A DNA stretch of 42,397 nt from the IMG/VR virus record IMGVR_UViG_3300020056_000060, positions 1 to 42,397 of that record; one strand, written 5' to 3'. The stretch is from a virus. Below are positions 10,901 through 37,612 of this stretch, piece after piece; positions within the stretch are counted from its first letter, which is position 1; each line of letters starts with the position of its first letter. A model generated the notes under the pieces. The model had not been told where the DNA came from, ran no database searches, and was given only the letters and a program-made list of their open reading frames with translations. The position numbers were made by a program, and so were the translations under genes.

Positions 10901-13900
10901 AGATTCAAATTTCCAAACTTCGGTTGGTAACTTATTTGATGATATTTTAAACATAATTGAGTTTGATCAACTGCCAAGCGAAGGAACAGTTTATCCAGAA
11001 CCGGGTCCTGCAAGCACTGATTTGATCAATGCCACCGAACAACTTATTGCAAACAGAACATTCTTACAAGAAGAAGTTATTGCATATATTAATGACAATA
11101 ACTTTGTATACGATCAAGCCAAGTGCGAAAGAGATACTGGATTGATTATTGATGCAGCATATTTTGATGCAGCATTAGGAACAAACTATAATGCAGTAAC
11201 AAGTGGACTTGCATATCAAAGAGCTAATAGTGCATATGTTATCAGTGGACAGCAAACTGAAACAGTAGGTGCTATAAACTATGCAAAAGGTCAAGCAAGC
11301 GCAGCAGTTTCAAGTGATGCTACTGCACAAACTAGAGTAGAAGCGGCATTTGACGAGATTGTAGATATTATACAAAACGGTGTAGTAAGCACTGATACAT
11401 CTGCAGATGCACTAGTCTTTGCTAATCCAACTACTGCAACAGCAGCACAGATTGCTGCAAAAGACCAATTACAAGCTAACAGGGATTTCCTAGCAGCAGA
11501 AGCAGTATCTTATGTTGAAAACAATTATCAAAACTTTGTATACGATCAAGCAAAGTGTGAGCGTGATGTAGGATTAATAATGGATGCTGTGGCACTTGAC
11601 ATAGCATTAGGAACAAACTATAACAGTGTAACAGCAGGTCTATCTTATCAAAGAGCAAGTAGTGCTGATTTACAAGATAACCAGAAAATACAAACACTTG
11701 CTGCAATTAGAGAATTAAAAGAACAGCTAAGATTATTAGGATTAAGTGATGCTGCTGAGCCTAAAATGGAAGCTGCAATTGATGAAGTAATTGACATACT
11801 TGATAATGGGGTGTTAAGCACAGATACAGCAGCAGATGCTCTCGTATTCCCAACACCAGGTGTGCTACCAACTACAGATGCAGTGGCAGCGAAAGATCAA
11901 TTAATTGCTAACAAGGAATATATTAAAGACGAAATTATTGCTTGGATTGCTGTAAACTTTCCATCATTAACATATGATGCAACAAAATGCGAACGTGATG
12001 TAGGATATATTGTAGATGCAATATGCCATGATATTTTGTATGGTGGTAACAGTGCAACTATTACAGCAGCAAGAAGTTATTTTGTTGATGGTGTAAGCCA
12101 ACTAGGAGATCCAGCAGAAGAAGCAGCAACAGCTGATGCGTATAATAGACTAGGTGACATACTTGGAGATATTGTTATAGAAGCGCCTGTGACAACTTCT
12201 GTAGGAAACTCTTTAACACAAGATACAGCAGGAACACCTGCAAGCTCAACTGAAGCTGACGATGTCGAAGGCTTAGTCAAAATTATTGAAGATGTAATTA
12301 GAGCAGGCGACTTAACTGGTTTACCTGCAACTGTATTACCAAGCATTACATGGGCTGATGACGATTTAGAGCAAGCATACAGCGTAATCAAAGGCAACAA
12401 AGAAACTGTTCAAACTGAAATTATTATCTTTATCGCGAACAACTTCCAAACATTTGCTTATGACGAAGCAAAATGCCGTAGAGATGTTGGAATACTTGTT
12501 GAAGCAGCAGCATACGATGCAGCATTTGGAACAAACTACAATGCAGTAACAAGTGGACTTGCATATCAAAGAGCTAATAGTGCATATGTTATAAGTGATC
12601 AAAACTTACAAACTATTGAATCAATCAAATATTTAAGAGATCAAATGTCAACTGCTACAGGTATTAGCAGTCAATTCTCAGCAAGGATAATTACAGCTCT
12701 AAACGAAGTAATTGACATAATTGAGAATGGTGTAGTCAGCACTGATACATCTGCAGATACATTAGTATATCCTGTGCCAAGTATCTTACCAACCAGTGCA
12801 TCAGACGATGCTAACGCACAACTAGTAGCTAACAGAATATTCTTAAGCAAAGAAGTTGTTGCATATGTAAACACAACTTATCCATTATTAACATATGATC
12901 AAACCAAATGTGAAAGAGATACAAAATATATTGTTGACGCACTAGCATATGATGTTCAATATGGAGGTAACTTAGCAACTAAAGCAGCAGCTGAAGCATA
13001 TTTTGTCGGAACAGCAAGTCAATTAGGCGCAGGACAACAAGCAGCTACAATAGATGCTTATACACAACTGAAAACATGGTTGTCAGATGTTGTGCAAAAT
13101 AATTTAATTGCATCTCCTCAACAAGTGGTTGTAACACAAGATACAAGCGGTGCAGGAGCAACAGCAGTTGAAGCAGGAACTGTTCAAAACTTGATTCAAA
13201 TCATTATTGATGTCATTTCAGCAGGTAACACTGATAGTATGCCTGCAGATATAGCACCAAGTATTGCTTGGACATCTGATAGCGATCAAGGTAGTTTTAC
13301 ACATATTACAGACAGAACAACTGATTATCAAAATGCTGTAATCACATTTATCAACAATACATTTACACGCAACTTTACATTTAATTCTACAAAATGTGAA
13401 CGTGATACAAAGTATATCGTAGATGCATTAACATATGACATTTTGTATGGTGGTAACAGTGCAACTAGAGCTGCTGCTGACAGTTACTATGTAGGAACAA
13501 GCAATCAAGTTACTGGACAACAACAAGAAACATCGGATGCATTAGGATGGGTAAACACACTACTAGGTAGTGTTTTACTTGATACTGCATACAGTGATCC
13601 TGAACAAACAGTCGAAACACAAGTTACAGGCAGTGGAGCAGCAAGTGCAACAGAAGTTAACAGAGTAGGTGACTTACTTGACATTATACAAGATGTAATT
13701 ATTAATGGCACTGATAATCTACCAACTGAAACAAATCCAGATATTACATGGGCAGCAGCTGGTATACAGTCAGCAGTAGCAACTTTATCAGCATCAAAAG
13801 AAACTATTATAAGCGATACTATTTCGTTTATAGGAACAACATACAACGGTTTTAATTACAATCAAGATGTGTGTAAGAGAGATACAGGTTACTTAATTGA

Positions 13901-15697: not shown

Positions 15698-18600
15698 ATG
15701 GCAACAACAATTAGACATAAGCGATCTGCAGTCGCGAATAAAAAACCTATAGTTTCTCAATTAGAATCCGGTGAATTAGCAATCAACACAGCCGACGGTA
15801 AAGTATTCTTGTTACGTGATGATAACACAGTACAGGACATTACTAGACGCATTTTTGATAAAGATACTGAAATTGCAATCACAGACCAAGGTGATAGCGC
15901 AAGTGCAGAAATTAGTATCAAAGTAAACGAATTTGAAACTGCTCAGTTTACACAAGCAGGAATGAACATGTTCAATGACTTTGATCTTGAAAATGCTAAA
16001 ACCCTAACATTCAAAGAACTTACAGCGTCAGGTGATGACGGTGTAGGAATCAAAGCACCGGATACATTAGACTCAGGATACACAATGACACTGCCTCCGT
16101 CACGTGGTACTGTAGGTCAGCTCTTGAAAACAGATGGCTTTGGTAACTTATCTTTTACCGATGCTGACGTATTTGGTGGTAATGTTATCTACGTTTCTGC
16201 TGAACAAGGCGATGACGCTAATGATGGACAGAGCGCTCCAGTTAAAACTGTTAAGAGAGCCTGTCAAATTGCTTCTGGACTAGTTTACAATGCTGACGGC
16301 ACAATCAACTTCCGTCGTGTAAACATCAAAGTTGCTGTTGGTGACTACACAGAAGACAACCCTATTATTGTTCCGGATAACACAGTTATTAAAGGTGACG
16401 GTTTGCGTGGTTGTATTATCCGTCCTGCAAATGCTAACTTAGATATCCTACGTGTTAGAAACGCTTGTTACTTTGGTGAATTTACATTCCGTGACGGTGT
16501 TGATGATAACTATGTTCCAACTATTACTGCTGACTATGCTGTGGCGTTTGATGATCCTTTTGATCCTGTAATTACAGATAGAGATCAATATACAAACTTA
16601 CCTGACACAAGACCAACTATTGTTACTTCACCATATATCCAGAACGCCTCGATTATTTCGTTCTTAGGTATGAACGGTGCTAAGATTGACGGTTCAAAAG
16701 TTGAATCACCCAACGTTCCGACATACGGTATTGAGGCTGAGAATCCGGTTATTGGTGCTATACCTGAACAAGGTAAGTCAATGGTTGCTAACGCCTTTAC
16801 TATTCTATCATTTGGCGGAACAGCGTGGCGATTAACCAATGATGCTTATGCACAGATCGTGTCTTGTTTTGAAATCTTCCTGCTCAACGGTGTTTACTGT
16901 CAGTCAGGCGGATATTGTTCAATTACTAACTCTGCTACCAACTTTGGTTTGTATGCTCTGCGAAGTTCAGGTTTCTCTCCTAAAGCGTTTGCGTTTGACA
17001 GAAGTTTTGTAACTGCTACAGGTGCTAGTGAAGGAAAGCAAACTGTTAGTATTGTAGGTATCAATCGTGATGCACCTGTTGAAGAATTTGTTTTACGCTT
17101 TAGAGAACCAGATTACAAAACTGCACATGACTTGTTGATACTAAACAGAGATTTAATTGCAGATGATGTTGTAACATGGATTAACGCACAAATTGCAGCA
17201 GCAACTCCAAGTATATGGGCTGGCTTTACTTACAATGAGGACAAGTGTAAGCGTGACGTTCAGCTTCTAGTTGATGCAGTAAGATTTGATATTCTGTTTA
17301 ACAGTAATCATAGATCAGTAAGTGCAGCACTTAGATATTTCAGCGCAAGTTTTGATTCGGATACATTTGCTGCACAGAAAGATCAACACATTGCAGCATT
17401 TGGACAAGCAAAAACGTTTACTGGTAATTTGTTAAATGATGCTACAGCAATTTCAAGATCAAATGCCCTATGGGATGAGATTATTGACATTATTACCAAC
17501 GGCGATGAAAATACCGTGCCAGGTGACAGTGTTGCAGCAGCATATTCAAGACCAACACCAACTGGCGGTAGTGACAATGCAAGCGATAGCGGATACGCAA
17601 ATGCTGTAACACAACTTATCAACAACAAAGATTTTATTGCAGCAGAAATTAACGCATGGATCAACACACAAATTGCAGCAGGCACTGCTCCATTCTCTAC
17701 AGGCTTTGTTTACAATGAAGCAAAATGTTTAAGAGATTCAAAATTAATTATTGATGGATTGCTGTATGATTTAACATACGGCGGTAATTTACAATCTAAA
17801 CTAGCAGCAGCAGCATACTTCATTGACGGGACTGCACAATATGGCACAGGACAGCAAGAAGAAACTGTTGCTGCATATGGCAGACTGCAAACTGTTATAA
17901 GCGAAGTTATATTAGAAACAACTGTAACAGTAAGTGCAGGCAATGCTGAAACACAAGATACTAGTGCAGCCGCAGGTAGTGCAGCAGCAGCCACAGCAGC
18001 TTCTGATAGATTACAAGAAATTATTGATTTTATTGACGGCACAGGCGCTACACCAATTACAACTATTGAGCCAGATGTTTCATGGGTAACAGGAAACGAA
18101 TCTGAAGCATACGGATTGCTTGATACTATTGGTGCTATAAACATTGCGCAGAACGTAACAGAATATATCAACACACAAATACAAGCAAACATTTGGTATG
18201 GATTCACATACGACGAATCAAAATGTAACAGAGATACTCAGCTTATTGTCGAAGCAGCAGCAAAAGACACTTGGGACACAGGTAACAGGTATTCACGTAG
18301 TGCTGGTCTAGCATATTACACACAAAACTTGCAAGACAGTTCACGTATCAGTATCAGTGGACAAGAGTTACAAACTATTGCAGCTATTGAACAAGCAAAA
18401 ACAGAAGCTCTAACATATATCACTAGTGTATCAGCAGCAGTGCAAAATTTTGTTGGCAGCAGATTTGATATTGTAAACACAATTATTAACGACCCACAAG
18501 ACTTGCCAGATCCAACTGAAGTTAGTTCAGAAGGTGACATTACAAACAATTATAAACTTACACCTACAGAAACAACTTTCGATGGTGCAACAGATGTAAA

Positions 18601-21600
18601 TGATGAAACAAATATCTTTACAATCGTTGGACACGGTTTTGTAAATGGACAAAAAGTTATCTATGATCCAAACGGTAACAACGTTATTAGAGGACTGGAT
18701 GATGAACAACAGTATTATGTAAAACTTCTAAGTGAAGATGAGTTTACACTTGCGTTTGACGATAGTTTGGATTTTGATGTTAACATTATCGAAGCAAGCA
18801 CAGGAACACACAAGTTCTTCTCTGATGTTATTGAATTTTATGTAGAAGAAATATTAAGTTCACACCAAACATATCAAACACTGATACTTGAATCTGGATC
18901 AGAAGGATTTGAATTTGTTCCTGGTAGAGCAATAACAGGTGTTACAGGAGCACAAAACAACAGTGCTATTGTTCACAGTTGGGAACCTAGAGAGCGTAGA
19001 CTAGTTGTAAGTATTGAAGAAGTTGCAGTTGGACAAGCACTACTTAGAATACAGTTTGACGAAACCAGCACTATTGATGAAGATCATACCAGTGGCACAC
19101 CAAACACAACTATTGGTGTAAACGAAACCAGTGCAAAACTAGGACTAGGCACAGCAACGTTTAGCATTACTGCCACAGACGGTAGTTCAAGTTTAACAAA
19201 CTTGACAGCACTGCCAGAAAAGCAGTGTTGGTTCCACAGACCATCAGTTGTTAACTCATCTGCACACACTTGGGAATATGCAGGTTCTGGAACAGACTAT
19301 AACGCTCTACCACAGAACGGTGGTAACACAAGAGCAGAATATGAACAGTTTGAAGAATTACCAGGACGAGTTTATTCATCGGGAACAAACGAACTTGGTG
19401 ACTTTAAAGTTGGTGACTTTATTACAGCGTTCAACAGAACTGGTAACATTACATTTAGAAACAAAGTTCAGGTGGACGAACTTGATGCTTTGAGACTGAG
19501 CTTGTCAGATGTTGCTATTGAAGAAATCTCAACTAGTGTTAACTTAGGTGACGATGAGATTGGTGGACCAAGTGATGGAAGATTGTCAACACAGTTGGCA
19601 GTAAGAAGTTTTATTTCAAACAGACTAGGTGGCTTTGTTGACAAAACTGTGTCTACTGCGGCTGTTCCGGGTGCTATTGTTCAGTTGAACGTTAATGGTC
19701 AGCTAAACCCTGATTTGATTCCTGCTACACGTCAGTTTACAAACACAAACACAGATGGTTATCAATCAAGACTAGAACAAGTAGATGATATTCCTGCTAT
19801 TGACTTGAAAGCTGGTGATATTGCTACTGAAAACTATGAGCAGGTAGAACTTACACTAAGTGGTAATATTAGTGCTAACGACGGTGATGAAATTACTCAA
19901 CCAGGTATCGCCGATGCTGTTGCATACGCAAAAGGTAATTACAGTTTAAGCGGTAACATACTTGTTGTGACACAAGGCGGCGCATGGGATGAAAACGAAG
20001 ACTCAACAGGCGATCCATGGGATGTAAGCGGCACTGCACCTAACTTGTTTGTTAACGGTGTTGACTCTGGTGTGCGTCCAACATCAAAAGGACCAAGCAC
20101 TGAGATTGTTGACAACTGGTTCCTACGTAGTTCAAATTCAAGCCAATACTTGGTTATGGATCCAACTGTCACATACACATTTACTACTGATGAAACATGT
20201 AGTCTTACATTTGCAGAACGTAATAGTAACGTAGCAACTGTTACAACCAGTGCAGCACACAACTTACAAGTAGGTAACACTGTTCAAATTTTGAACACTA
20301 CAGACGAAACATACAATGAAAATGGACTTGTTCTTAGTGTTCCAACGTCAACAACATTCACCTACACAAACACTGATAGTGCTGATCCAACCAAAGCAAG
20401 TGCAGCCGCAACAGGAACGGTAAGAACTATTGTTACATCTGCAGACGGTGGCGCTCAAGGTGCGGTAACTGAATTCAAGAGTGGTATTGCTGCTAACTTA
20501 GACAACGCAAACATTGTTGGTGGTAGTGGATACACTCCTACATTAGGAAACAAAGTTTATGAGTCAGTGCCACTACAAGCCAAGACAGGTTCAGGAACTG
20601 GAGCAAAAGCCAACATAACAGTCACAGCTGGACAAATCACCGACGTTGACATCAACAGAGGCGGCACAGGATATGCATCAGGAGACTTGTTAGAAGTGAA
20701 TGCAAGCGATGTAGGCGGAACTGGTAGTGGCTTTGAAATTGAAGTTACAGCTATAGAAAAACGTATCTATGTAAACATTATTGGCGGCGAGCTATTTGTT
20801 GCAAGTGCTTCATCACTAGACTATGTTGAAGACAACACTGCGGTTGCAACTTCAAAAGATATCAACTTAGACGATGTTATTACACACAACTTCCTAGCTG
20901 GTTCAACTGGCGGCGGCGGTGCTGTTGACTATAGCACATACAGAATTACAATTACCAATCACGGACTATCAAACGGTGATCCAGTAACATATGATACACT
21001 TGGCAACGTTCCAATCGGTGGTTTGTTGAACGAACAAGTTTATTATGTAAAACGTATAGATGCAGATACAATTGAATTGTATGAAGGCTTTGCACTACTT
21101 AACCAAGTTGAGTTTACAAGCACACCGGCAAATGCTAACCACAATATTACTCGTAGCACTGTGAACACTACAGACAATAGTATTGTTGTAGAAGGTCACG
21201 GACTAACAACAGGTGATGCAATACGTATAGAAACACTAAGCGACGGTTCAAGTGCAAACGAATTATTCAGCACAGTTGGTGCAGGCGGACCAGTTGACAG
21301 TGGTTCAAGATTCTTTGTAGGATCTGTAACAACTAACTCGTTTACTATACACGCACTGCGCTCAGATGCTTTGAGCAGCATTAATGACTTGGTTACAAAC
21401 GCACAAGACATTACTGCGGTTGGTGTTGGTAGTGCAGAAGTTATTACAAACAATGTGCAAATTGAAAGTGTTATTAACACATCAAGTAGATTGATTGCAA
21501 ACTGGAACACACTTGCTGTTACAAACATTGACGCAGAAAATATTATTTCTGGAACAATATCTCCAAGTAGACTTGGAGCGTCAGGTGTTCCAAACAGTGA

Positions 21601-24600
21601 TACAGCATTATTTGGTGACAGCAGTTATAAAACTGTTGTGCAAAGTTTGAAAAAATCAACTACAACCGATAACCCAATAACACTCACAGGTTCGAGTTTA
21701 AGTGGAGAGTTCTATGGTGATCCAGTTAACATTGGTATTGCTAACGTTGATTATGATCCGCTAGGAACATTCTCAGGACTTGGTGTTAGTAGATTCTTAC
21801 AATCACAATTTGACGTTGATGCAGGTGGAACTGGACAAGTATTCATCAAAGATGGCGTAATTGATGCAGGAACATTAGACAGTTTGGATAGTGCATACTT
21901 CTTGAATCCTGCAAACTTAACCAGCTTAGTGCCGGTAACTAGAGGCGGAACTGGCATAGGAACCTACGCTATAGGTGATATATTATATGCTCAATCAGCA
22001 TCAACTCTAAATACATTGAATATAGGTAGAGCAAACAACTTCTTAAAGTCAAACGGAACAACTCCTGAATGGGGAACAGCACTTGATCTTGCAGAAGGTT
22101 TGGATGTTGGTTCTGCTGCACTTACATCATCAAGCACCGGAGCTGGTAGAATTTACAACACAAATGTTACCAGCCTTGAAATAGGTGGAGAAGCAACAAA
22201 TATCGTTGTTGGTTCGGAAACAGCAGAAAGAAATTTATTTCCATTCATAGCAAGCTATGAAGCAACTGCTGCTAGAGATGTTGCAGTAAACTTAGAATCA
22301 GTAACTCAGTCTACAGCAGAAGTTACAGATAACGCAATCAAAGAAGTTATTATGTCTGATACAACTGGCATCTTAGCGGGTATGATTGTCACAGGTAGTT
22401 CTAGTATTCCAAGTAACACGACAGTAAGTGGTGTTACAGATGATGCTATTTACTTGAGTGCTGCTACAACTTCAACTATACTCTCAGGTGTTACACTATC
22501 GTTTACATATACTCCTTACACACTTGGTATTAACGAAGGCGATACAATCAACATTGCAAGTAGCACAGTGACTAACTTAGATGGCACATGGCCAGTAAGT
22601 GGTGCAACAGATACAGCAACATCGTTTACAATCAGAGTTGACGATCTTGTTACAGCTGACCCACTTGATGTGCCAGCAGGCACAGCAACCATTAACGGCA
22701 ATCTTGTATTAAGAAATGCAAGTATTGTTATAGGGCAAGCAGAAACCGATACCGCTCCGAACAATGCTACAATTAAAGGAACTAACGCTAGAGGCACTGA
22801 TGTAGCAGGCGGCGACTTGACAATACAAGCAGGTTTAGGAACAGGCGCAGCTACAGGCGGTGACGTAATAATTAGCACAGGCGATGTAGGATCTACAGGA
22901 CAAGTACAAAACGATGCGCAAGTGAGAATACGTGTCAACGCTGGAGGCACAACAGAAGTAACAGGATACACCAACTTCTCAGATGATGGTGCAATCAAGT
23001 TACCAGTTGGTAATACAGCAGCAAGACCTACAGTGCCTGCTCAAGGTGACGCACGTTTCAACAGTCAGCTAATACAGTTTGAAGGTTATGATGGAACAGC
23101 ATGGGCACCATTAGGCGGTGTAAGAGACGGCGATCAAGACACGTATATTATTGCAGAAACAGGTCCAAGTGCTGACAATGATGATTTAGATTTCTACACA
23201 GCAAATGTTCAAAGATTACAAATTGATCAAGACGGTGACTTGAGATTTGGCGATAGCATTAACAAGGTTGTAATGGATTGGGCAACTGGTAATACAGATA
23301 TTGCAGGTGATCTTACTGTTGAAGGAAATCTAACAATCAATGGAACTACAACTACAATTAACACAACAACACTAAGTGTTGATGATAAAAACATAGAACT
23401 TGGTGATGTAGCAACTCCTACCGATGCAACAGCAAACGGAGGTGGTATTACATTAAAAGGTAATACAAATCATACAATAACATGGAGTAACGCAAATGAC
23501 AGTTGGGACTTTAGTGAACATGTTAATGTAATCAGCACCAAAGAATATCGTATTGCTAACACATCTGTGTTGAATGCAACTACATTAGGTGCAAATGTTG
23601 TAACCAGTAGCCTTACAACAGTAGGAGCATTAGCTGCTGGTAGTATTACTTCAAGTTTTGGTAACATTGATATTGGCACAAGCACATTTACTGGTAACGG
23701 TAGTGGACTAGGTTCACTCAATGCTGACAATATTACAACAGGAACTGTAGCCGGTGCTAGACTAGGCGGCAACCAGTCAATGGCTGGAGTTAAAACATTT
23801 AGCGATACTACCGCAGCAGTTGATACTGCAACAGGTGCTGTTAGGCTACTAGGTGGTATGGGTGTAGCAGGTGCTATCTATGCAGGCAGCTTGAATACAG
23901 CAAACGGTGCTGGTATACAACAACTTGCGGCAGGTAACCTAGCAAGTGGCACAGTTCCTAATGCACGTATTGATGGAACATACAGCAACTTAACAGGAAC
24001 AGGCGCATTAAATGCCGGTAGTATTACAAGCGGCTTTGGTAATATTAACATTGGCACAAGCACATTTACTGGTAACGGTAGTGGACTAACAAGTGTTGAT
24101 GCAGAAACACTAGATAGTTTAGATAGCACAAGTTTCCTACGCAGTGATGCAGATGATACTGCTACAGGATTGATTACAACAAGCCGTAGCGGTGAACAAA
24201 TGCGTTTTGGCGATACCAGTTCAACTGGTAATCCATATATAAGTTGGTATCAAGGTGCTACACGTAGAGCTTATATGCAGTATGTTGACTCTGGCGATGT
24301 TATCCATATTGCAAACGAAGGTGGCAATACTAGATTAAACATAGATGGCGGAACAAGTGGACTTCAATTCTATGATGGCACAAACACATATACTGTATGG
24401 CATTCAGGTAACGATGGCTCAGGTAGTGGACTAAGTGCTGATAATCTAGATGGACTTGACAGCGGATCATTCCTACGTAGCGATGCTAATGATAGCTTCT
24501 CAGGAACATTAAGTGGTTCAGGAAGTATCAACATTACTGGTAACGTTACTGCTAACAGTTTCTCAGGTGATGGTAGTGGACTTACAGGTATTGGTGCTGA

Positions 24601-25195
24601 TGATGCTGATACACTTGACGGCATAGACAGCTCTCAATTCTTACGTAGTGACGTAAACGATACAATGAGTGCTATCTTATCGTTTGGTAGTTCTACACGT
24701 CAGATGATCAACTTGTGGAGCACAAGCTACGGTATTGGTGTACAAGGCAGTACAACATACTTGCGTAGTGCTAGTAGATTTAGTTTCCATAGAGGCGGTT
24801 CGCACAGCGATACTGAAAACAACCCAGGTTCAGGCGGTACAGTAGCAATGACATTGGATAGTAGCAGTAACCTAACTGTCACAGGCGAAGTTACAGCATA
24901 TTCAGATGCTAGAATCAAAGACAACATTGAAGTTATTGCAGATCCTTTAACTAAGATCCTAAGCATACGTGGTGTAACATTTACACGCACAGACCAAGAA
25001 GATACAAAACGTAAACATATGGGTGTAATTGCTCAAGAAGTTGAACAATACTTCCCAGAAGTTGTTCATGTAGAAGACAACGGTATGAAAACTGTTAATT
25101 ACGGAGCAATGGCAGGTGCGTTTATCGAAGCGTTTAAGGAACAGCAAAAACAGATTGATGAATTAAAAGAAATGGTTGCTAATTTAGTTAAATAA
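15698..25195 (+). CDS. Giant fibre protein B with S74 self-cleaving chaperone (3165 aa)
   Basis: Residues ~20-50 are a common fibre N-terminus (GELAINTADGKVFLL). Residues ~160-430 form a beta-helix-like domain (NVIYVSAEQGDDANDG, GDYTEDNPIIVPDN) related to protein A. Three KCxRD modules start near 509, 670 and 836. A segment at ~1190-1290 (WEYAGSGTDYNALP, GTNELGDFKVGDF) matches protein A. Four HGL/HNL-x-x-G strand modules lie near 975, 1513, 1751 and 1831. GGTG and G-NLTI-G fibre repeats follow. The C-terminus (~3060-3165) is a Peptidase_S74 intramolecular chaperone: YSDARIKDNI supplies Ser3069 and Lys3074, matching the Ser/Lys spacing of the endosialidase chaperone, then GVIAQEVEQYFPEVV. Cleavage before Ser3069 would release ~97 residues after trimerisation. 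Probably the main host-binding long fibre. Confidence 0.88.
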   Translation: MATTIRHKRSAVANKKPIVSQLESGELAINTADGKVFLLRDDNTVQDITRRIFDKDTEIAITDQGDSASAEISIKVNEFETAQFTQAGMNMFNDFDLENAKTLTFKELTASGDDGVGIKAPDTLDSGYTMTLPPSRGTVGQLLKTDGFGNLSFTDADVFGGNVIYVSAEQGDDANDGQSAPVKTVKRACQIASGLVYNADGTINFRRVNIKVAVGDYTEDNPIIVPDNTVIKGDGLRGCIIRPANANLDILRVRNACYFGEFTFRDGVDDNYVPTITADYAVAFDDPFDPVITDRDQYTNLPDTRPTIVTSPYIQNASIISFLGMNGAKIDGSKVESPNVPTYGIEAENPVIGAIPEQGKSMVANAFTILSFGGTAWRLTNDAYAQIVSCFEIFLLNGVYCQSGGYCSITNSATNFGLYALRSSGFSPKAFAFDRSFVTATGASEGKQTVSIVGINRDAPVEEFVLRFREPDYKTAHDLLILNRDLIADDVVTWINAQIAAATPSIWAGFTYNEDKCKRDVQLLVDAVRFDILFNSNHRSVSAALRYFSASFDSDTFAAQKDQHIAAFGQAKTFTGNLLNDATAISRSNALWDEIIDIITNGDENTVPGDSVAAAYSRPTPTGGSDNASDSGYANAVTQLINNKDFIAAEINAWINTQIAAGTAPFSTGFVYNEAKCLRDSKLIIDGLLYDLTYGGNLQSKLAAAAYFIDGTAQYGTGQQEETVAAYGRLQTVISEVILETTVTVSAGNAETQDTSAAAGSAAAATAASDRLQEIIDFIDGTGATPITTIEPDVSWVTGNESEAYGLLDTIGAINIAQNVTEYINTQIQANIWYGFTYDESKCNRDTQLIVEAAAKDTWDTGNRYSRSAGLAYYTQNLQDSSRISISGQELQTIAAIEQAKTEALTYITSVSAAVQNFVGSRFDIVNTIINDPQDLPDPTEVSSEGDITNNYKLTPTETTFDGATDVNDETNIFTIVGHGFVNGQKVIYDPNGNNVIRGLDDEQQYYVKLLSEDEFTLAFDDSLDFDVNIIEASTGTHKFFSDVIEFYVEEILSSHQTYQTLILESGSEGFEFVPGRAITGVTGAQNNSAIVHSWEPRERRLVVSIEEVAVGQALLRIQFDETSTIDEDHTSGTPNTTIGVNETSAKLGLGTATFSITATDGSSSLTNLTALPEKQCWFHRPSVVNSSAHTWEYAGSGTDYNALPQNGGNTRAEYEQFEELPGRVYSSGTNELGDFKVGDFITAFNRTGNITFRNKVQVDELDALRLSLSDVAIEEISTSVNLGDDEIGGPSDGRLSTQLAVRSFISNRLGGFVDKTVSTAAVPGAIVQLNVNGQLNPDLIPATRQFTNTNTDGYQSRLEQVDDIPAIDLKAGDIATENYEQVELTLSGNISANDGDEITQPGIADAVAYAKGNYSLSGNILVVTQGGAWDENEDSTGDPWDVSGTAPNLFVNGVDSGVRPTSKGPSTEIVDNWFLRSSNSSQYLVMDPTVTYTFTTDETCSLTFAERNSNVATVTTSAAHNLQVGNTVQILNTTDETYNENGLVLSVPTSTTFTYTNTDSADPTKASAAATGTVRTIVTSADGGAQGAVTEFKSGIAANLDNANIVGGSGYTPTLGNKVYESVPLQAKTGSGTGAKANITVTAGQITDVDINRGGTGYASGDLLEVNASDVGGTGSGFEIEVTAIEKRIYVNIIGGELFVASASSLDYVEDNTAVATSKDINLDDVITHNFLAGSTGGGGAVDYSTYRITITNHGLSNGDPVTYDTLGNVPIGGLLNEQVYYVKRIDADTIELYEGFALLNQVEFTSTPANANHNITRSTVNTTDNSIVVEGHGLTTGDAIRIETLSDGSSANELFSTVGAGGPVDSGSRFFVGSVTTNSFTIHALRSDALSSINDLVTNAQDITAVGVGSAEVITNNVQIESVINTSSRLIANWNTLAVTNIDAENIISGTISPSRLGASGVPNSDTALFGDSSYKTVVQSLKKSTTTDNPITLTGSSLSGEFYGDPVNIGIANVDYDPLGTFSGLGVSRFLQSQFDVDAGGTGQVFIKDGVIDAGTLDSLDSAYFLNPANLTSLVPVTRGGTGIGTYAIGDILYAQSASTLNTLNIGRANNFLKSNGTTPEWGTALDLAEGLDVGSAALTSSSTGAGRIYNTNVTSLEIGGEATNIVVGSETAERNLFPFIASYEATAARDVAVNLESVTQSTAEVTDNAIKEVIMSDTTGILAGMIVTGSSSIPSNTTVSGVTDDAIYLSAATTSTILSGVTLSFTYTPYTLGINEGDTINIASSTVTNLDGTWPVSGATDTATSFTIRVDDLVTADPLDVPAGTATINGNLVLRNASIVIGQAETDTAPNNATIKGTNARGTDVAGGDLTIQAGLGTGAATGGDVIISTGDVGSTGQVQNDAQVRIRVNAGGTTEVTGYTNFSDDGAIKLPVGNTAARPTVPAQGDARFNSQLIQFEGYDGTAWAPLGGVRDGDQDTYIIAETGPSADNDDLDFYTANVQRLQIDQDGDLRFGDSINKVVMDWATGNTDIAGDLTVEGNLTINGTTTTINTTTLSVDDKNIELGDVATPTDATANGGGITLKGNTNHTITWSNANDSWDFSEHVNVISTKEYRIANTSVLNATTLGANVVTSSLTTVGALAAGSITSSFGNIDIGTSTFTGNGSGLGSLNADNITTGTVAGARLGGNQSMAGVKTFSDTTAAVDTATGAVRLLGGMGVAGAIYAGSLNTANGAGIQQLAAGNLASGTVPNARIDGTYSNLTGTGALNAGSITSGFGNINIGTSTFTGNGSGLTSVDAETLDSLDSTSFLRSDADDTATGLITTSRSGEQMRFGDTSSTGNPYISWYQGATRRAYMQYVDSGDVIHIANEGGNTRLNIDGGTSGLQFYDGTNTYTVWHSGNDGSGSGLSADNLDGLDSGSFLRSDANDSFSGTLSGSGSINITGNVTANSFSGDGSGLTGIGADDADTLDGIDSSQFLRSDVNDTMSAILSFGSSTRQMINLWSTSYGIGVQGSTTYLRSASRFSFHRGGSHSDTENNPGSGGTVAMTLDSSSNLTVTGEVTAYSDARIKDNIEVIADPLTKILSIRGVTFTRTDQEDTKRKHMGVIAQEVEQYFPEVVHVEDNGMKTVNYGAMAGAFIEAFKEQQKQIDELKEMVANLVK
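23672..23710 (+). repeat. 39-bp exact repeat, copy 1 (fibre B distal part)
   Basis: Identical to 24050-24088; encodes the fibre strand motif IGTSTFTGNGSGL. Confidence 0.85.
24050..24088 (+). repeat. 39-bp exact repeat, copy 2 (fibre B distal part)
   Basis: Identical to 23672-23710, 378 bp downstream, shortly before the S74 domain. Confidence 0.85.
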
Positions 25196-25458: not shown

Positions 25459-25839
25459 ATGAAAAAAACACTCTACGAAGTCTTAAATGTTGACTTAGCA
25501 CAAGCATACACAAAACAACGTAAAATAGATATTTTACAAACATTAGATATTGATGCACAAACGCAAATAGCTGTTAAAGAAGAAATAGAAGCAATGCCAA
25601 TTCCAGATGACGACGACCGAATCCATTGGATTATGACATTTGGAAAAGCAGCAGGCGCAGATCTGTTAACCATAGGCAAAGTCCAGCCGGAAAATATGAT
25701 AAAAATGGCAAGTTTGTCACCTGAAGATTTCCAAGAATGTGTAAAGATAGCTACACAATCTGCACGTGATTGGAATCAATTAACTATAGCTGCTGAAAAA
25801 GATCTTAATCAGGAAACCGTTCCAAGCACAATGTTGTAA
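25459..25839 (+). CDS. Unknown protein at head of the glycosyltransferase operon
   Basis: A 126-aa, mostly helical, charged cytosolic-type protein that I do not recognise. Visible features are a basic N-terminal helix (YTKQRKIDILQTL), an acidic Pro-containing break (MPIPDDDDRIHWIMTFGKAAG, around residues 47-67) and a C-terminal helix pair (SPEDFQECVKIATQSARDWNQ). There is no signal peptide, membrane span or known catalytic motif. It is transcribed from a good sigma70-type promoter and translationally coupled to the next gene (TAATG overlap at 25839). Context suggests a partner of the glycosyltransferases or a structural or assembly factor for the fibres; neither is shown by sequence. Confidence 0.7.
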   Translation: MKKTLYEVLNVDLAQAYTKQRKIDILQTLDIDAQTQIAVKEEIEAMPIPDDDDRIHWIMTFGKAAGADLLTIGKVQPENMIKMASLSPEDFQECVKIATQSARDWNQLTIAAEKDLNQETVPSTML

Positions 25840-26423
25840 TGAAACTTAGCATTTGTATTCCTGCTAGAGATACTGTTCACACCCTATTTGCTAAACAGCT
25901 TAGTTTGCTAACAAGCAGACTTACAAGTAAATCTATTGATTTTGATTTACATATAGTTGTAGGTAGTGTGATTGTTGATTCACGGACTGCCCTTGTGAAA
26001 GAAGCTCTTAACACAAACCCTAGTCATATATTATGGTTAGACAGTGACATACATTTTCCTCACAATGTATTTGAAAAACTTGTGCTACACGATAAAGACA
26101 TAGTGGCAGCAAACTATAGCACAAGATATTCTCCATATCGAAGTGTAGCATTTGTTGATCCTGAAAATACAGAAAAAAGATTTGAAATGAAACACGGCTT
26201 ACACAAAATTTGGGGAGTTGGCATGGGGTGTATGCTTACAAAAGCTTCTGTATACAAAACTTTACCAAAGCCTTGGTTTAAACACGAATACAATACAGAT
26301 ACTGATTCGTTTAGTGGAGAAGATATGTATTTTTGTAATCAAGCAATGCATCATGGAATAGATGTTTATTTAGATGCTGACATTATTTTAGCACACATAG
26401 GAACGAAAGCACATTTATTATGA
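25839..26423 (+). CDS. GT-A fold glycosyltransferase (GT2-like)
   Basis: A 194-aa compact glycosyltransferase. The N-terminal strand LSICIPARD (residues 3-11) is typical of GT2 and related families. ILWLDSDIHFP contains the metal- and nucleotide-sugar-binding D-x-D (Asp68-Ser69-Asp70). GVGMGCMLTKASVY is the acceptor-side strand, and SGEDMYFCNQA (Glu161-Asp162) is the usual E-D catalytic region, with His186 (ILAHIG) as a likely metal ligand. Such phage enzymes transfer sugars to virion proteins, DNA or host surface glycans; the acceptor here is unknown. Both ends overlap neighbouring genes (TAATG and ATGA), so it is co-translated with the unknown upstream gene and the 872-aa repeat protein. 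Confidence 0.85.
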   Translation: MKLSICIPARDTVHTLFAKQLSLLTSRLTSKSIDFDLHIVVGSVIVDSRTALVKEALNTNPSHILWLDSDIHFPHNVFEKLVLHDKDIVAANYSTRYSPYRSVAFVDPENTEKRFEMKHGLHKIWGVGMGCMLTKASVYKTLPKPWFKHEYNTDTDSFSGEDMYFCNQAMHHGIDVYLDADIILAHIGTKAHLL

Positions 26424-29038
26424 GAGCTATTGATAAATTTGAAAGATTTAAAACACCTGTTCATAACGGACAAGATTATTTAAAAAAACATATATTCGAT
26501 CAATATCCTGTAATATACGATGAAATAGAAATCGAAGATTGGCAAGGTCATGCAGAATACGTTTGGTTAGTAAATCCAGACATAAAAATCTATGACAGCT
26601 TTCCGTGGTATTTTCGTCCTCAACATAATCAACCATCGATTCATGCTTTTCCTTATGTTTATAGGAAAAGTAGAGAAGTAATGAGTTGGGATGAAGTTAG
26701 ACTAGTTCCAACTAAACCAGGAACGTATGAAACAAAAAAATATAGTTATATCTGTGGTGAATACGATCCTTATTTTGGTAAAGAAAAGTTTGATATATTT
26801 TACATAGGTGATGATAGGACTAGCCACAAAGAATTAATCAAACGTGTGCCACAATTACAAGTTGTAGAAACATTTGAACAAGCACAACAACGCAGTAATA
26901 CAGACATGTTTTGGTTAGTATATGATGATATCATGATTCGTGACACATTTAAGTTTAGCTACACGCCAGATGAATGGAGTTACAATTTTGTTCATGTATT
27001 TGGAAATGGTGATATTGATCAACTCGATGGAGTAGCTCTTGTTCCAAAAAACTATTCAGCCACAGAAAAAGAAATACAACATAGATTTTTTGCTAATAAA
27101 AAAGAAATTAGAATAATGGCAAGCACGCCACGACAATACGATAAATTTGAAATAAACAATCACGAACAATACCTTGAGGCAGTGCAAAAATCTACAACAG
27201 AACTATTTTGGGGTGTGCCTAGTGATATTGAAATATTAGACGAAAGTGTTTTTGATTTTTACATAAGTCACCAAGATACAAAACGAAAAAGCAACCATGC
27301 ATGGCTTAATGGAAACAAGTATGATGGTGTTGTTTTGTATAGCAAACATGCACCAGTAACTGAAAAAGAAATAGAATATAGATTTCTTGCAAATAGAATT
27401 GAGCACGATAAAAAAGTTAGTTGTAGTAAACAGTTTGAGCAATTTACTATTGACACACACGATGATTACCTAGAAGCACTAAAGCATACAACGACAAATA
27501 TGTTTTGGGGTATACCCAGTGATGTCATACCAAATGAACAGTTTGAATGGGACGATTATTTCAATGAATATAATGTGTTAGATAGAAATATTACCCATGT
27601 TTTTAAAAACGGAGAGCACTATGATGGTATTGTATTATACAGCACTAGTGTTGAAGTAAGCAAAAAAGAAATTGAACATAGATTTTATATTGATAAAAAA
27701 GAACATGACAAAATTGCAAGCACACCTAAAAAATATGACATTTTTACTATAGATAATTACGAAGATTATACAGAAGCATTATATAATACAACCAGTGAAA
27801 TGTTCTGGGGTGTGCCAAGTGATGTAGAAATTGCAAGCGATTGGGAGTTTGATTTTTATTTTAGTCACCATAATAGATACGATAGAGAAATAAATCATAT
27901 TTTTAAGAACGGAGCGCACACCGATGGTGTTGTTCTTTTTAGTAGACACTTGTTAGTAAGTGAAAAAGAGGTAGAACATAGATTTTATATTAAAAAGAAA
28001 GAATGGGATATTGTTGTAAGTAATCCAAAAACATATCCTGTTTACACAGTAAATACATTTGAAGATTATGAAAACGCATTAGCAGATACCGATAATGAAA
28101 TGTTTTTTATAGTTAATGATGATATTGATGTAAGCACTGATTTTAATTGGAATTTCTATATAAGCTATCATAACCAATACGAAAGAAAAATTAATCACGT
28201 TTGGAAGAACAAAGATTTTTACGACGGAGTTATGTTAACCAACATACATAAACCGTTGACAAAGCGAGAAATTGATTATAGATTCCTAGCAGTAAAAAAA
28301 GAATATGATGAAATAGCAAGTGTGCCTAAACCATATGATATTGTGTTTATTAGCTACAATGAGCCCAACGCAGATGAAAATTTTGAAAAATTAAGACAGC
28401 AATTTCCTGACAGAGTTGTGCATAGGGTGCATGGTGTAGAAGGTATTCACCAAGCACATATTATTGCAGCAGAAACTGCTGAGACAGAAATGTTTTATGT
28501 AGTTGATGGAGATGCACAAATAATTGATACATTTAATTTTGATTATCAAATAGCAAGATATGACATTGACGGACGTAGCACAGTTTACGTTTGGCGCAGT
28601 TATAATCCTATCAACAGTCTTGTATACGGATACGGTGGTGTAAAATTATTACCAAGACAACTAACAATTGATATGGATATTAATACTGCTGACATGACAA
28701 CTAGCATTAGCAAAAACTTCAAAGCAATACCTGAAATGAGCAATACAACTGCATTCAACACTGATGCATTCAGTGCATGGCGTAGTGGCTTCCGTGAGTG
28801 TGTGAAACTAGCAAGCCGCAGTATTGATAGACAGAAAGACGAAGAGACACAGTTCAGACTAGATGCTTGGTGCACAAAAGGTGCAGACAAGCCGTTTGGT
28901 AATGCGGCGATCAGCGGTGCTATTCACGGCAAAAAATACGGTGAATATGCGGCAAATAATCCTGATGCACTGAAAAAGATAAATGATTTTGAATGGCTAG
29001 AAGAACAGTTTAAGCAATCATATCAACAAGCTGAATAA
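26420..29038 (+). CDS. Tandem glycosyltransferase-like repeat protein (872 aa)
   Basis: An 872-aa cytosolic-type protein built of about seven GT-A-like modules. Modules start near residues 1, 120, 214, 313, 413, 513 and 613; the central ones have an exact period of 99-100 residues. Each carries (E/D)MFW-V-x-x-D-(I/V) with a D-x-D-like acidic pair, then F-x-F-Y, a DR/ER-x-(I/N)-H segment, and YDGV-L, followed by (T/S)-E-K-E-I-x-x-RF. Acidic variants are NPD, YDD, PSD, NDD and, in the last module, VDGDAQI. The last module (residues ~620-750, IVFISYNEPNADENF to GYGGVKLLPR) looks most intact. Residues ~750-872 form a separate helical domain (AFSAWRSGFRECVKLASR). Start overlaps the previous gene (ATGA). 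Its 3' end overlaps the convergent Nudix gene by 29 bp. Activity is an inference. Confidence 0.7.
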   Translation: MRAIDKFERFKTPVHNGQDYLKKHIFDQYPVIYDEIEIEDWQGHAEYVWLVNPDIKIYDSFPWYFRPQHNQPSIHAFPYVYRKSREVMSWDEVRLVPTKPGTYETKKYSYICGEYDPYFGKEKFDIFYIGDDRTSHKELIKRVPQLQVVETFEQAQQRSNTDMFWLVYDDIMIRDTFKFSYTPDEWSYNFVHVFGNGDIDQLDGVALVPKNYSATEKEIQHRFFANKKEIRIMASTPRQYDKFEINNHEQYLEAVQKSTTELFWGVPSDIEILDESVFDFYISHQDTKRKSNHAWLNGNKYDGVVLYSKHAPVTEKEIEYRFLANRIEHDKKVSCSKQFEQFTIDTHDDYLEALKHTTTNMFWGIPSDVIPNEQFEWDDYFNEYNVLDRNITHVFKNGEHYDGIVLYSTSVEVSKKEIEHRFYIDKKEHDKIASTPKKYDIFTIDNYEDYTEALYNTTSEMFWGVPSDVEIASDWEFDFYFSHHNRYDREINHIFKNGAHTDGVVLFSRHLLVSEKEVEHRFYIKKKEWDIVVSNPKTYPVYTVNTFEDYENALADTDNEMFFIVNDDIDVSTDFNWNFYISYHNQYERKINHVWKNKDFYDGVMLTNIHKPLTKREIDYRFLAVKKEYDEIASVPKPYDIVFISYNEPNADENFEKLRQQFPDRVVHRVHGVEGIHQAHIIAAETAETEMFYVVDGDAQIIDTFNFDYQIARYDIDGRSTVYVWRSYNPINSLVYGYGGVKLLPRQLTIDMDINTADMTTSISKNFKAIPEMSNTTAFNTDAFSAWRSGFRECVKLASRSIDRQKDEETQFRLDAWCTKGADKPFGNAAISGAIHGKKYGEYAANNPDALKKINDFEWLEEQFKQSYQQAE
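27059..28258 (+). repeat. Four tandem ~300-bp repeats encoding 99-100-aa modules
   Basis: Unit boundaries at the (A/T/S)-x-K-E-(I/V) motif fall at 27059, 27359, 27659 and 27959, with the next module at 28259. Units have diverged in DNA but keep length almost perfectly. Confidence 0.85.
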
Positions 29039-29441
29039 CTGTTTCTAATTTTTGTGTGTTAGTTTTACTTTTTAGTGTATTATGCAAACCAAAATGCAAA
29101 GGTTTTGGCCACATACCAAAACTTACCCATGCATATCCATCATGCTCGTCGTTTAATTTAGGCAAAAATTCTTTTTCAATAACACACAAATAAGTATGAA
29201 AATGAAACTTGTCATCGTTGCTAATAAAAGTTTCTAATGGAATAGTTTTCTTAATATCAACACTGCCAATTTCTTCTTTTATTTCTCTTTGTAAACCTTC
29301 CCAAGGTGTTTCTACACCTTCGTTTGTGCCTCCAACTAATCCCCACAAATTATTTTTGCGTCCGTTAGCTCTGTGTAATAAAAGAAAATGTTTAGTATCT
29401 AGTGCATAAAATAACGCACCACTACAAATAATTGCGTTCAT
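29010..29441 (-). CDS. Nudix hydrolase
   Basis: A 143-aa protein with a complete Nudix box at residues 38-60: G38, E44, R52-E53, E56-E57 and G59 fit G-x5-E-x7-RE-U-x-EE-x-G-U, with Ser60 at the final position that is normally hydrophobic. The family hydrolyses nucleoside diphosphates linked to another group (damaged dNTPs, NADH, ADP-ribose, diadenosine polyphosphates or RNA caps). The upstream ALDTKHFLLLHRANGRKNNLWGL pattern is the usual strand before the box. Minus strand, 12 nt after the gp15 stop, so probably the last gene of the gp14-gp15 transcript. No strong ribosome site. Substrate cannot be read from sequence. Confidence 0.92.
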   Translation of the reverse strand: MNAIICSGALFYALDTKHFLLLHRANGRKNNLWGLVGGTNEGVETPWEGLQREIKEEIGSVDIKKTIPLETFISNDDKFHFHTYLCVIEKEFLPKLNDEHDGYAWVSFGMWPKPLHFGLHNTLKSKTNTQKLETVIQLVDMIA

Positions 29442-34306: not shown

Positions 34307-37300
34307 ATGGCATTAGTATCACCAGGCGTCCAGGTTTCGGTAATTGACGAGAGTTTTTACACTCCGGCTGAACCAGGCACAACACCAATTATATTTGTCG
34401 CAACAGCGGAAAATAAAACTAACGGTGCAGGAACAGGCATTGCACCAGGCACACTAGCAGCAAATGCTGGTAAAGTATACTTGCTCACATCGCAGCGTGA
34501 TCTTGTTGAAACATTTGGCGATCCAGTATTTAAGACTGACGCTAACAACAATCCGATCAACGGAGGAGAGCAAAACGAATATGGATTACAAGCGGCATAT
34601 TCATATTTAGGTGTTAGCAATAGAGCATTTGTTGTAAGAGCAGATGTTGATCTAGATGCTTTAAATGCAAGTGCAACAGCTACAGCAGACAATCCTGCTA
34701 ACGGAACTTCTTGGCTTGATACACAAAGCACAAGTTGGGGATTGTTTAGCTGGAACAGCGCAGCAATTAGCACAACAGGTGGACAAACATTCTCAAGCAT
34801 ATCTCCTATCGTAATCACCGATTCAACTCAAACTTCAGGTGCAATGCCATATACACCTAAAGGCAGTGTTGGATCAATTGGTGAATACGCAATCACAGCA
34901 GTGAGCAATGTTATTAGATTCTGGTATAAATCAGGCGGCAACAGCTCAGCAGGTGTTACATCTGGCACTTGGGTAGAAGTAGGCAGTGAAAACTGGAAAC
35001 TCAGCTGGCCAATGGTAACAGGCTCAGGCAACGGAACCGGCCTTGCACAAAACCAACAGTTTGAAATACAGTTATCAGACAGCGCAAACATTACAGTTAC
35101 TTTAACTGGCAGCGATGATAGTTTGGCAGACATGGTAGCAGATATTAACACTGCGGCAAATTCAAGCGGAATTTACGCTGTATTAGAAGCAGGTGTAGTA
35201 AGTTTGTATTCAAACGGTCTACACGATGAATTTACTCTTGTTGACGGAACAGGAACACCACTACAGTGGGCAGGTATTGCAGTTGGAAAATATCTAGCAC
35301 CAGACTTGACTATTGCAAAACACACTCAAGTTCCTACGTTCAAGAGATCAGATGCAGGTGCAGGTGTTAATGGTAGACCTACTGGTAGTATTTGGGTTAA
35401 AACAACTGAACCAAACGGTGGAGCACGTTGGAGAGTAAAAGTATGGAACTCAACAACAGCAACTTGGGATTCTTATGACGCACCTTTAGCACCAGATGCA
35501 CAAACAGCATTAAGTGAATTAGATGCATCAGGCGGCGGAGCAAACCTTGCATTAGGATCAATTTATGTTGAAACTAATCTAGATGATATAGAAGATTATC
35601 CAAAAGCAGACTTCCAAATCTATAGCAGAGCAGCAACCGGTGCGTCTGAAGTTACAAGTGCAAAGGTTGATGCTGGTAGTGTTGCAGCAGGAACATATAC
35701 ATTATTCCTACAAGAAACACTGAAAGGTAATGCTAATCTTACAGCAGCAGTTACAGTAAGTGTAACAGCAACTGGTCTAGCAACAGATGCAGACGTGATT
35801 GCTAATGCAATTAACGCAGCAGGACTTACTAACACTGTTGCAAGTGTAGATAGTGGAAACAGAGTAAAAATATCACACAGATTAGGTGGTGATATTGTTG
35901 TTGTAGATGCAGGTGGCTTACTAAATTCAATTGGTATTACATCATCAGGAAATACGCCAACTGCAAACTACTATGCAGAAGGTGGAAATCAGTGGAGAAT
36001 TTCAAACTGGAAACCATTGGTTTATACAGCAAATGACGATGCTCCAACAGCAATTGCAGCAGATGGCGCATTGTGGTATAGCAGTTTGATCGATGAAGTA
36101 GACATTATGATTCATAACGGCACTACATGGGTAGGCTATCACGATGCTGACGCTGGTTATGCAGATTCAGATCCAGCAGGACCTATTGTTAGTGCAAGTC
36201 AACCAACTGTGCAAAGTGATAACTCAGAGCTTGTAACAGGCGATATTTGGATTAGCACAGCCGATTTAGAAAACTATCCTCGTGTTTATGTGTATAATCA
36301 AATACTAGCAGATGCAAATTCTAATCCGTGGGTAGAAGTTGACACAACTGATCAAACTACAGAAAACGGTATGCTATTTGCAGATGCACGTTATAATACA
36401 AGCGGTGCTAACAGCGACGAAGCTGGCGACATTAGTGACTTATTAACAAGCAATTACTTAGATCCAGATGCACCAGATCCAGCATTATATCCAAAAGGCA
36501 TGTTGCTATGGAACCTACGTAGAAGTGGATTCAACGTAAAACGTTTTGAGCGTAACTACATTGATGTTAATGGTGATAACCCACGCATGGGTGATGCAAG
36601 TATGTCTGATTACTATCCACATCGTTGGGTAACTGAATCAGCTAATGAAGCAGATGGCAGCGGCGCATTTGGACGTAAAGCACAACGCAAAGTAGTTGTC
36701 CAAGCATTACAAGCAATGCTAAACAGCAACGAAGATATTCGTGACAACGAAACAAGGCTTTACAATTTGATTGCAACACCGGGTTATCCAGAGCTAATTG
36801 GTGAAATGGTAAGTCTAAACTATGACAGAGGATTAACAGCATTTGTTGTAGGCGATACACCATTCAGACTACCAAGTGATGCAACATCGTTGTTGAACTA
36901 CACAACTAACCAAGAACTTGCAGTTGAAGATAATGATAACGGATTAGTTACAAGTGATGAGTATCTAGGTGTTTATTATCCAAGTGGTTTCACAAGTGAT
37001 AACGCAGGAAACAACATTATTGTTCCTCCATCACATATGGTATTGCGCACTATTGCGCTTAGTGACCAAGTTGCATATCCATGGTTTGCACCAGCAGGAA
37101 CAAGACGTGGCGGCGTTACCAATGCAACAGCAACAGGTTATATTAATGCAGAAGGCGAATTTACAAGTATTGCACTAAACGAAGGACAGCGTGATACACT
37201 GTATGCAAATAATGTTAACCCAATTACATTCTTAACAGGTGCAGGTATTACAGTGTTTGGACAGAAAACTCGTGCAGCTAATGCAAGTGCATTGGATAGA

Positions 37301-37612
37301 GTAAACGTTGCAAGACTAGTTGTTTACTTACGTAGTCAGCTAAACAGTCTAGCAAAACCATACTTGTTTGAACCAAACGATAAGATTACACGTGATGAGA
37401 TCAAACAGCAGGTTGAGAGCTTGTTAGTTGAACTAGTAGGACTTAGAGCACTTTATGACTTCTTAGTAGTATGTGACGAAACAAACAATACACCGGCTAG
37501 AATAGATAGAAACGAACTATATGTTGATATCGCAATCGAACCAGTAAAAGCAGTAGAGTTTATTTACATCCCACTACGCTTGAAAAATACAGGAGAGATA
37601 TCAGGTCTTTAA
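34307..37612 (+). CDS. 18: Tail sheath protein gp18, large
   Basis: A 1101-aa contractile sheath protein. The N-terminus (MALVSPGVQVSVIDES) and residues ~50-120 (YLLTSQRDLVETFGDP, LQAAYSYLGVSNRAFVVRADVDL) are the family's typical opening. The C-terminal ~300 residues are also diagnostic: YPWFAPAGTRRGG, LYANNVNPITFLTGAGITVFGQKTR, RVNVARLVVYLRS, and the closing VKAVEFIYIPLRLKNTGEI. These C-terminal parts form the inner contractile core. T4 gp18 is 659 aa; the extra ~440 residues lie centrally (about 130-780), beta-rich and Gly/Ser/Thr-rich. They would sit on the outer surface as protruding domains. Strong ribosome site. A stem-loop and the tail tube gene follow, as expected for sheath-tube order. 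Confidence 0.93.
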   Translation: MALVSPGVQVSVIDESFYTPAEPGTTPIIFVATAENKTNGAGTGIAPGTLAANAGKVYLLTSQRDLVETFGDPVFKTDANNNPINGGEQNEYGLQAAYSYLGVSNRAFVVRADVDLDALNASATATADNPANGTSWLDTQSTSWGLFSWNSAAISTTGGQTFSSISPIVITDSTQTSGAMPYTPKGSVGSIGEYAITAVSNVIRFWYKSGGNSSAGVTSGTWVEVGSENWKLSWPMVTGSGNGTGLAQNQQFEIQLSDSANITVTLTGSDDSLADMVADINTAANSSGIYAVLEAGVVSLYSNGLHDEFTLVDGTGTPLQWAGIAVGKYLAPDLTIAKHTQVPTFKRSDAGAGVNGRPTGSIWVKTTEPNGGARWRVKVWNSTTATWDSYDAPLAPDAQTALSELDASGGGANLALGSIYVETNLDDIEDYPKADFQIYSRAATGASEVTSAKVDAGSVAAGTYTLFLQETLKGNANLTAAVTVSVTATGLATDADVIANAINAAGLTNTVASVDSGNRVKISHRLGGDIVVVDAGGLLNSIGITSSGNTPTANYYAEGGNQWRISNWKPLVYTANDDAPTAIAADGALWYSSLIDEVDIMIHNGTTWVGYHDADAGYADSDPAGPIVSASQPTVQSDNSELVTGDIWISTADLENYPRVYVYNQILADANSNPWVEVDTTDQTTENGMLFADARYNTSGANSDEAGDISDLLTSNYLDPDAPDPALYPKGMLLWNLRRSGFNVKRFERNYIDVNGDNPRMGDASMSDYYPHRWVTESANEADGSGAFGRKAQRKVVVQALQAMLNSNEDIRDNETRLYNLIATPGYPELIGEMVSLNYDRGLTAFVVGDTPFRLPSDATSLLNYTTNQELAVEDNDNGLVTSDEYLGVYYPSGFTSDNAGNNIIVPPSHMVLRTIALSDQVAYPWFAPAGTRRGGVTNATATGYINAEGEFTSIALNEGQRDTLYANNVNPITFLTGAGITVFGQKTRAANASALDRVNVARLVVYLRSQLNSLAKPYLFEPNDKITRDEIKQQVESLLVELVGLRALYDFLVVCDETNNTPARIDRNELYVDIAIEPVKAVEFIYIPLRLKNTGEISGL

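Follow-up and report, generated by a model that had tools for sequence, protein, structure and literature searches.

The window analysed here is a stretch of viral DNA of 42,397 nucleotides, the IMG/VR record IMGVR_UViG_3300020056_000060 from its first to its last position. It belongs to a T4-like phage, and its tail sheath is nearest to those of Sinorhizobium phage Phosso, Agrobacterium phage Atu_ph07 and PA5oct-like phages. The sheath (34307–37612) is unusually long with 1101 residues and carries the usual sheath C-terminal domain at its end. Two giant fibre proteins are encoded side by side (7998–15593, 2531 aa, and 15698–25195, 3165 aa) and have several tail-fibre PHROGs in common. The gene studied here, which we refer to as the array gene, lies downstream of the second. 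The features of the locus are:

15698–25195, plus strand: giant tail fibre protein, 3165 aa, candidate acceptor (phrog_5342, 9e-182; synteny)
25459–25839, plus strand: 126-aa protein, phrog_1409, syntenic
25839–26423, plus strand: Anp1-like glycosyltransferase, 194 aa, DSD at residues 68–70 (PF03452, 6.3e-10; phrog_1574, 2.6e-24)
26420–29038, plus strand: array protein, 872 aa, with N-terminal segment, partial unit, four probable pseudo-GT-A units of 99–100 aa and C-terminal GT-A-type module
26474–26785, plus strand: N-terminal segment, residues 19–122, at most a highly diverged module (4.3 bits; uneven model confidence)
26786–27091, plus strand: unit u1, residues 123–224, YDD at the DxD site (44 bits; secondary structure; unit tree)
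27092–27388, plus strand: unit u2, residues 225–323, PSD (160 bits)
27389–27688, plus strand: unit u3, residues 324–423, PSD (165 bits)
27689–27988, plus strand: unit u4, residues 424–523, PSD (171 bits)
27989–28288, plus strand: unit u5, residues 524–623, NDD (164 bits; modelled together with the C-terminal module, pLDDT 91)
28325–29035, plus strand: C-terminal GT-A-type module, residues 636–872, probably catalytic as judged from motifs, AlphaFold2 model and PDB fold matches
28505–28513, plus strand: DGD, residues 696–698, canonical DxD of the C-terminal module
29010–29441, minus strand: NUDIX hydrolase, convergent, overlapping the array end by 29 nt at 29010–29038 (PF00293, 4e-15; synteny)

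The convergent overlap of array and NUDIX genes has a similar counterpart in related loci. At its other end, the array gene starts within the upstream ORF, which ends at 26423, giving an overlap of 4 nt. Co-translation of the two genes, as proposed in the initial annotation, is plausible on this basis. The upstream protein matches the Anp1 family (PF03452) with 39.4 bits against a curated cut-off of 28.8, but is a short phage version; its relatives include proteins of cyanophages and of other phages. The DSD noticed previously in this enzyme is borne out by conservation, as D68 and D70 are invariant in 10 homologues. Profile comparison of the Anp1-like enzyme with the C-terminal module of the array protein revealed no detectable homology.

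Wherever the contig reaches far enough, loci of the window clade have the order fibre gene, gene for a 60-aa protein, gene for a 126-aa protein, Anp1-like glycosyltransferase, array, NUDIX hydrolase and sheath stabiliser, and only a few carry extra genes in between. This conserved order supports that part of the earlier proposal which saw the array protein and the upstream enzyme as a joint system; the virion proteins or host glycans on which that system was said to act are putative targets.

The array protein had been described as about seven modules with a strict period. The strict period holds for the four central units, for which HMM bounds and DNA spacing agree: u2–u5 (residues 225–623) are 99, 100, 100 and 100 residues long, and the repeat spacing in the DNA is 297, 300, 300 and 300 nt. 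A unit HMM built from these four copies gave 160–171 bits for the copies themselves, 44 bits for the partial unit (148–224), 22.5 bits (E 5.7e-9) for the C-terminal module (679–731) and a trace of 4.3 bits at 42–69 in the N-terminal segment. Pairwise identity among the central units is approximately 34–55%. Shuffle z values were 26–48 for central units against each other, 10–19 for u1 against the central units and 5–12 for the C-terminal module against u1–u5. The N-terminal segment reached 5.8 against u1 and between −0.2 and 4.3 against the other modules, which makes the proposed seventh module marginal. By these comparisons six of the modules are secure and one is doubtful. Unit u1 keeps a strand-helix start (125–142) that is without counterpart in the internal units.

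Structure prediction by AlphaFold2 gave a mean pLDDT of 83.2 for the full protein from 19 alignment rows, with mostly 80–95 in the units and less than 50 in the first 23 residues. For residues 524–872 (u5 and the C-terminal module, 34 alignment rows) the values were pLDDT 91.2 and pTM 0.85. The modelled unit runs strand, helix, strand (with the DxD site), three further strands, helix and long strand. The C-terminal module has the same order, preceded by a leading strand-helix pair and followed by C-terminal helices. Thus, according to the confident model, each unit is a truncated GT-A fold, in which the first strand-helix pair (β1-αA) and the C-terminal helices of the complete core are lacking, and the C-terminal module is a complete GT-A-type fold. 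In GT-A enzymes the first strand and helix are part of the nucleotide-binding Rossmann half.

A Foldseek search with the 349-residue model returned only GT-A-type proteins among the best 50 PDB matches listed (E 1.5e-5 to 2e-4, probability 0.98–1.00), including PcManGT, BcsA, ppGalNAc-T, ArnC, WrtF, SunS, TarS and RmlT. With the full-length model the same kinds of GT-A matches were obtained, chondroitin polymerase K4CP included. Model confidence and matches fit a Rossmann-like β/α core followed by a mixed sheet for the C-terminal module. With low TM-scores (TMt not above 0.40 for long alignments, rmsd 7–20 Å), these matches permit a statement at fold level and no family assignment. The GT-A-like half-fold per unit that had been proposed is backed by the confident model. 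Two proteins in BFVD cover nearly the whole array (A0A6J5LK21, E 4e-39; A0A6J5L5L5, E 5e-35); both are annotated as ‘Uncharacterized protein’ of uncultured Caudovirales phages and share only 15–16% identity with the array protein.

A D-x-D-like acidic pair at the same place in every unit, as stated in the initial annotation, was not confirmed. In the window protein the canonical DxD is found only in the last module, and PSD holds a single acid. Among window-clade orthologues the site reads PSD, PND, PQD, PDC or SEQ in u2 and NDD, NED, NDN, NND, PDD, NDS or YHD in u5; in the C-terminal module it is always D-G/A-D. Among 144 distinct internal units, P occupies the first position in 58%, N in 18%, S in 16% and W in 3% (95% in sum), and D is the third residue in 62%. 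An array of 11 units has SSRNI, SRNC or TCSHL at this site in several units and DAD in its C-terminal module. The internal units thus do not have the DxD of GT-A enzymes. The first strand-helix pair and the helix holding the candidate base are missing as well. These units are thus very unlikely to be catalytic, and by sequence and model they are probably pseudo-glycosyltransferases.

Other positions of the same 144 units are near-invariant (unit numbering): S11, Y27, H70 and G80 in 99%, L83 and E94 in 100%. Further conserved positions are N69 and N74 (88% each), R66 (86%) and R98 (85%). The polar ones S11, R66, N69, H70, N74, D79 and E94 range from 82 to 100%.

In the C-terminal module, D696 and D698, a YG-GG-K loop and an FRE helix are invariant across the viral rows, and most of these features are kept in bacterial rows, where the columns of both aspartates hold. 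The YG-GG-K loop, which follows the DxD, is invariant or nearly so in the sequence alignment and is a candidate for the G-loop with its glycine. There is no ED; the invariant FRE (E793), in a helix after the long strand, is a candidate for the xED base, which is a guess. No conserved C-terminal His was found in the viral and bacterial rows of the alignments, a residue that has been lost independently in several GT-A clades (PMC7185993). DxD, candidate glycine-rich loop and conserved acid in the following helix make the module similar to metal-dependent GT-A enzymes, except for the His. Fold and motifs predict that the module is probably active as a glycosyltransferase.

Neither the array protein nor its C-terminal module matched a named family in Pfam, NCBIfam, PHROGs or the PDB sequences. 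Matches to Peptidase_M99_C (E 0.24) and to a replication initiation protein (E 1.1) were taken as chance. A single bacterial relative reaches Glycos_transf_2 at E 0.001, under the cut-off. As far as sequence profiles go, the family, including its DxD-bearing lone relatives, is without a name in Pfam, NCBIfam and PHROGs.

To survey relatives, IMG/VR was scanned with the array protein, yielding 105 relatives in one scan, and with two internal units, yielding 56 loci on contigs partly shared with the first scan. By tblastn, neither the whole protein nor its C-terminal module nor a lone relative had a match in 50,697 phage records, which for the module and the lone relative held up to E 10; the sheath control worked in this search. 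The number of units per C-terminal module varies widely among complete distinct ORFs. When the partial first unit is counted, so that the window protein has five, there are 34 ORFs with no unit, 14 with one, four with two, two with four and 29 with five; 7, 8, 9 and 11 units occur in one ORF each. A further locus (L127) has five units with the C-terminal module out of frame just downstream, which was left uncorrected. Another five-unit array (L016:7610–8297) carries a C-terminal extension of approximately 230 residues beyond the GT-A module.

In a tree of the units, first units form one clade (100/99) and internal units another. Positions 2–5 of the five-unit proteins group by position, and the extra units of eight- and nine-unit proteins fall between these groups; two neighbouring units of one array, L020_3 and L020_4, are sisters (100/90). 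The placement of the extra units and the sister pair argue that arrays grow by tandem duplication from within. Two arrays from other phages (L021 and L023) have internal units that group largely with one another, in a tree of 100 columns with many unresolved forks. This grouping points to a separate expansion of the array in those phages.

The repeats are kept under strong purifying selection as judged from codon comparison. Against three close relatives, dN/dS was 0.02–0.11 per segment where computable, rough values as dS is near saturation, and was as low in the units as in the C-terminal module. Decaying pseudo-modules are rejected on these values. Since conservation of the units is similar in strength to that of the enzyme, they presumably have some function.

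Elsewhere, on phage contigs of up to 383 kb, the C-terminal module with 0–5 units is located in a different cluster. There, a gene for a fibre-like protein, part of which is Peptidase_G2-like, precedes a number of unnamed genes; these are followed by a paralogue of 300 aa, which has a DxD-like site itself (DADN or DGDN), and then by radical-SAM/SPASM genes; some clusters add UDP-glucose dehydrogenase, nucleotide-sugar epimerase or GDSL hydrolase. The unnamed genes between fibre-like gene and C-module paralogues are conserved (L070:1414–4442, L030:449–4423) and comprise two of approximately 310 aa, one of 115 aa, two of approximately 280 aa and one of approximately 190 aa, for which Pfam and PHROGs gave no match worth naming. 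Loci such as L070, L023 and L041 have between 4 and 13 twitch/SPASM radical-SAM matches beside lone or array-bearing C-terminal modules and nucleotide-sugar genes, which looks like an island for glycan or protein modification. Up to 13 twitch radical-SAM matches occur in one such contig, and 12 radical-SAM genes have been reported earlier in a T4-like virus from the ocean (PMC5332604). No twitch radical-SAM gene was found in seven window-clade contigs of 27–82 kb; as far as the fragments show, such genes are confined to the other huge phages.

Lone homologues of the C-terminal module with 39–60% identity are present in bacterial assemblies, Photorhabdus and Bdellovibrionia among them. The Photorhabdus homologue (L091, L092, L093) has 234 residues and sits, in L092, in a cluster of GT1, two GT2, ABC and HlyD genes. 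The Bdellovibrionia homologue adjoins a paralogue and three radical-SAM genes. The module thus occurs with glycan genes in three settings, namely fibre and Anp1-like glycosyltransferase, UDP-sugar and radical-SAM genes in huge phages, and GT1 with two GT2 in Photorhabdus, which makes a glycosyltransferase role likely.

Comparison with known systems shows both likeness and difference. The common core of GT-A enzymes has been described (Taujale et al. 2020, PMC7185993). With its nearest structural neighbours PcManGT, WrtF, ppGalNAc-T and SunS, the C-terminal module shares the order of strands and helices, the DxD and, as a candidate, the glycine-rich loop at fold level, but it has no profile match, lacks the C-terminal His and is preceded by truncated copies of itself. 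Like the array protein, K4CP (2z86/2z87) has more than one GT-A module per chain. K4CP consists of two complete modules, whereas the array protein has one complete module and four to five truncated units without DxD (0–11 in relatives). An analogy may be seen in the ppGalNAc-transferases (GT27), which have a lectin domain of three repeats (PMC10901373), and so combine a catalytic GT-A domain with a repeat domain binding sugar on the substrate. Unlike these lectin repeats, the array units come from the GT-A fold itself, are placed ahead of the enzyme and differ in copy number. In the literature searched on tandem GT-A arrays and fibre glycosylation no such array is described, nor is the GT-A fold as a repeat of variable copy number; the architecture is unusual.

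The explanation that we favour, with about evenly balanced confidence, is a GT-A enzyme with one probably active C-terminal module behind a selected tandem array of dead GT-A repeats, which would serve as a multivalent binding scaffold. On this view an internal unit was duplicated in tandem to give the repeats, which selection has kept. The array would most likely hold a repetitive acceptor, either the giant tail fibre encoded upstream, which is a candidate from its gene position, or a glycan built on this fibre, and sugars would be added by the C-terminal module jointly with the co-translated Anp1-like enzyme. Binding of sugar or acceptor by the repeats is putative, and the near-invariant S, Y, R, N, H, D, G and E of the units could be structural. 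A multivalent scaffold for acceptor or glycan accounts for both the retained polar residues and the variable copy number. A scaffold of inactive modules had been one of the two options in the initial annotation and fits much better than the other, a multi-site enzyme, but there it was to serve the enzyme encoded upstream; the array protein has an intact GT-A-type module at its own C-terminus. With an invariant DxD and an FRE helix in its own chain, the scaffold need not serve the upstream enzyme only.

Alternatively, the repeats could be a passive spacer or structural solenoid without sugar binding, which places the C-terminal enzyme or makes a virion component. The strict unit length, the freedom of copy number from 0 to 11, the conserved hydrophobic and loop positions, which suit a structural repeat, and the neighbouring virion genes would all agree with this. 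A plain spacer accounts less well for the many conserved polar positions, which go beyond its needs, and we regard it as rather unlikely. It is improbable that the target is a host surface glycan (for superinfection exclusion) or the phage DNA instead of the virion: phage glycosyltransferases with such roles are known (PMC12619734) and the Photorhabdus relative lies in a GT/ABC/HlyD cluster, but wherever a window-clade locus extends far enough, the array is linked to the tail fibre by gene order, and none of the neighbouring genes in the window was recognised as base-hydroxymethylating. Despite the GT-A-like fold of each unit and the appearance of the two-module K4CP in the fold search with the full model, the processive or multi-site glycosyltransferase proposed initially, with sugar transfer by each unit, is rejected as highly improbable, as internal units are without β1-αA, the C-terminal helices and the helix with the FRE glutamate, and of their DxD the first Asp is absent in approximately 95% or more and the last in 38%.

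On the favoured explanation of an enzyme behind a binding scaffold, we tentatively suggest that an enzyme fold was truncated, silenced and multiplied, up to 11 copies, to hold or read a repetitive acceptor, with its length tuned by duplication in separate lineages. It is unusual for a silenced enzyme fold to serve as the unit of a repeat protein. Should the array bind the acceptor, it would be an evolvable way to set the reach or valency of a glycosyltransferase, and may offer a handle on fibre modification by uncultured giant phages.
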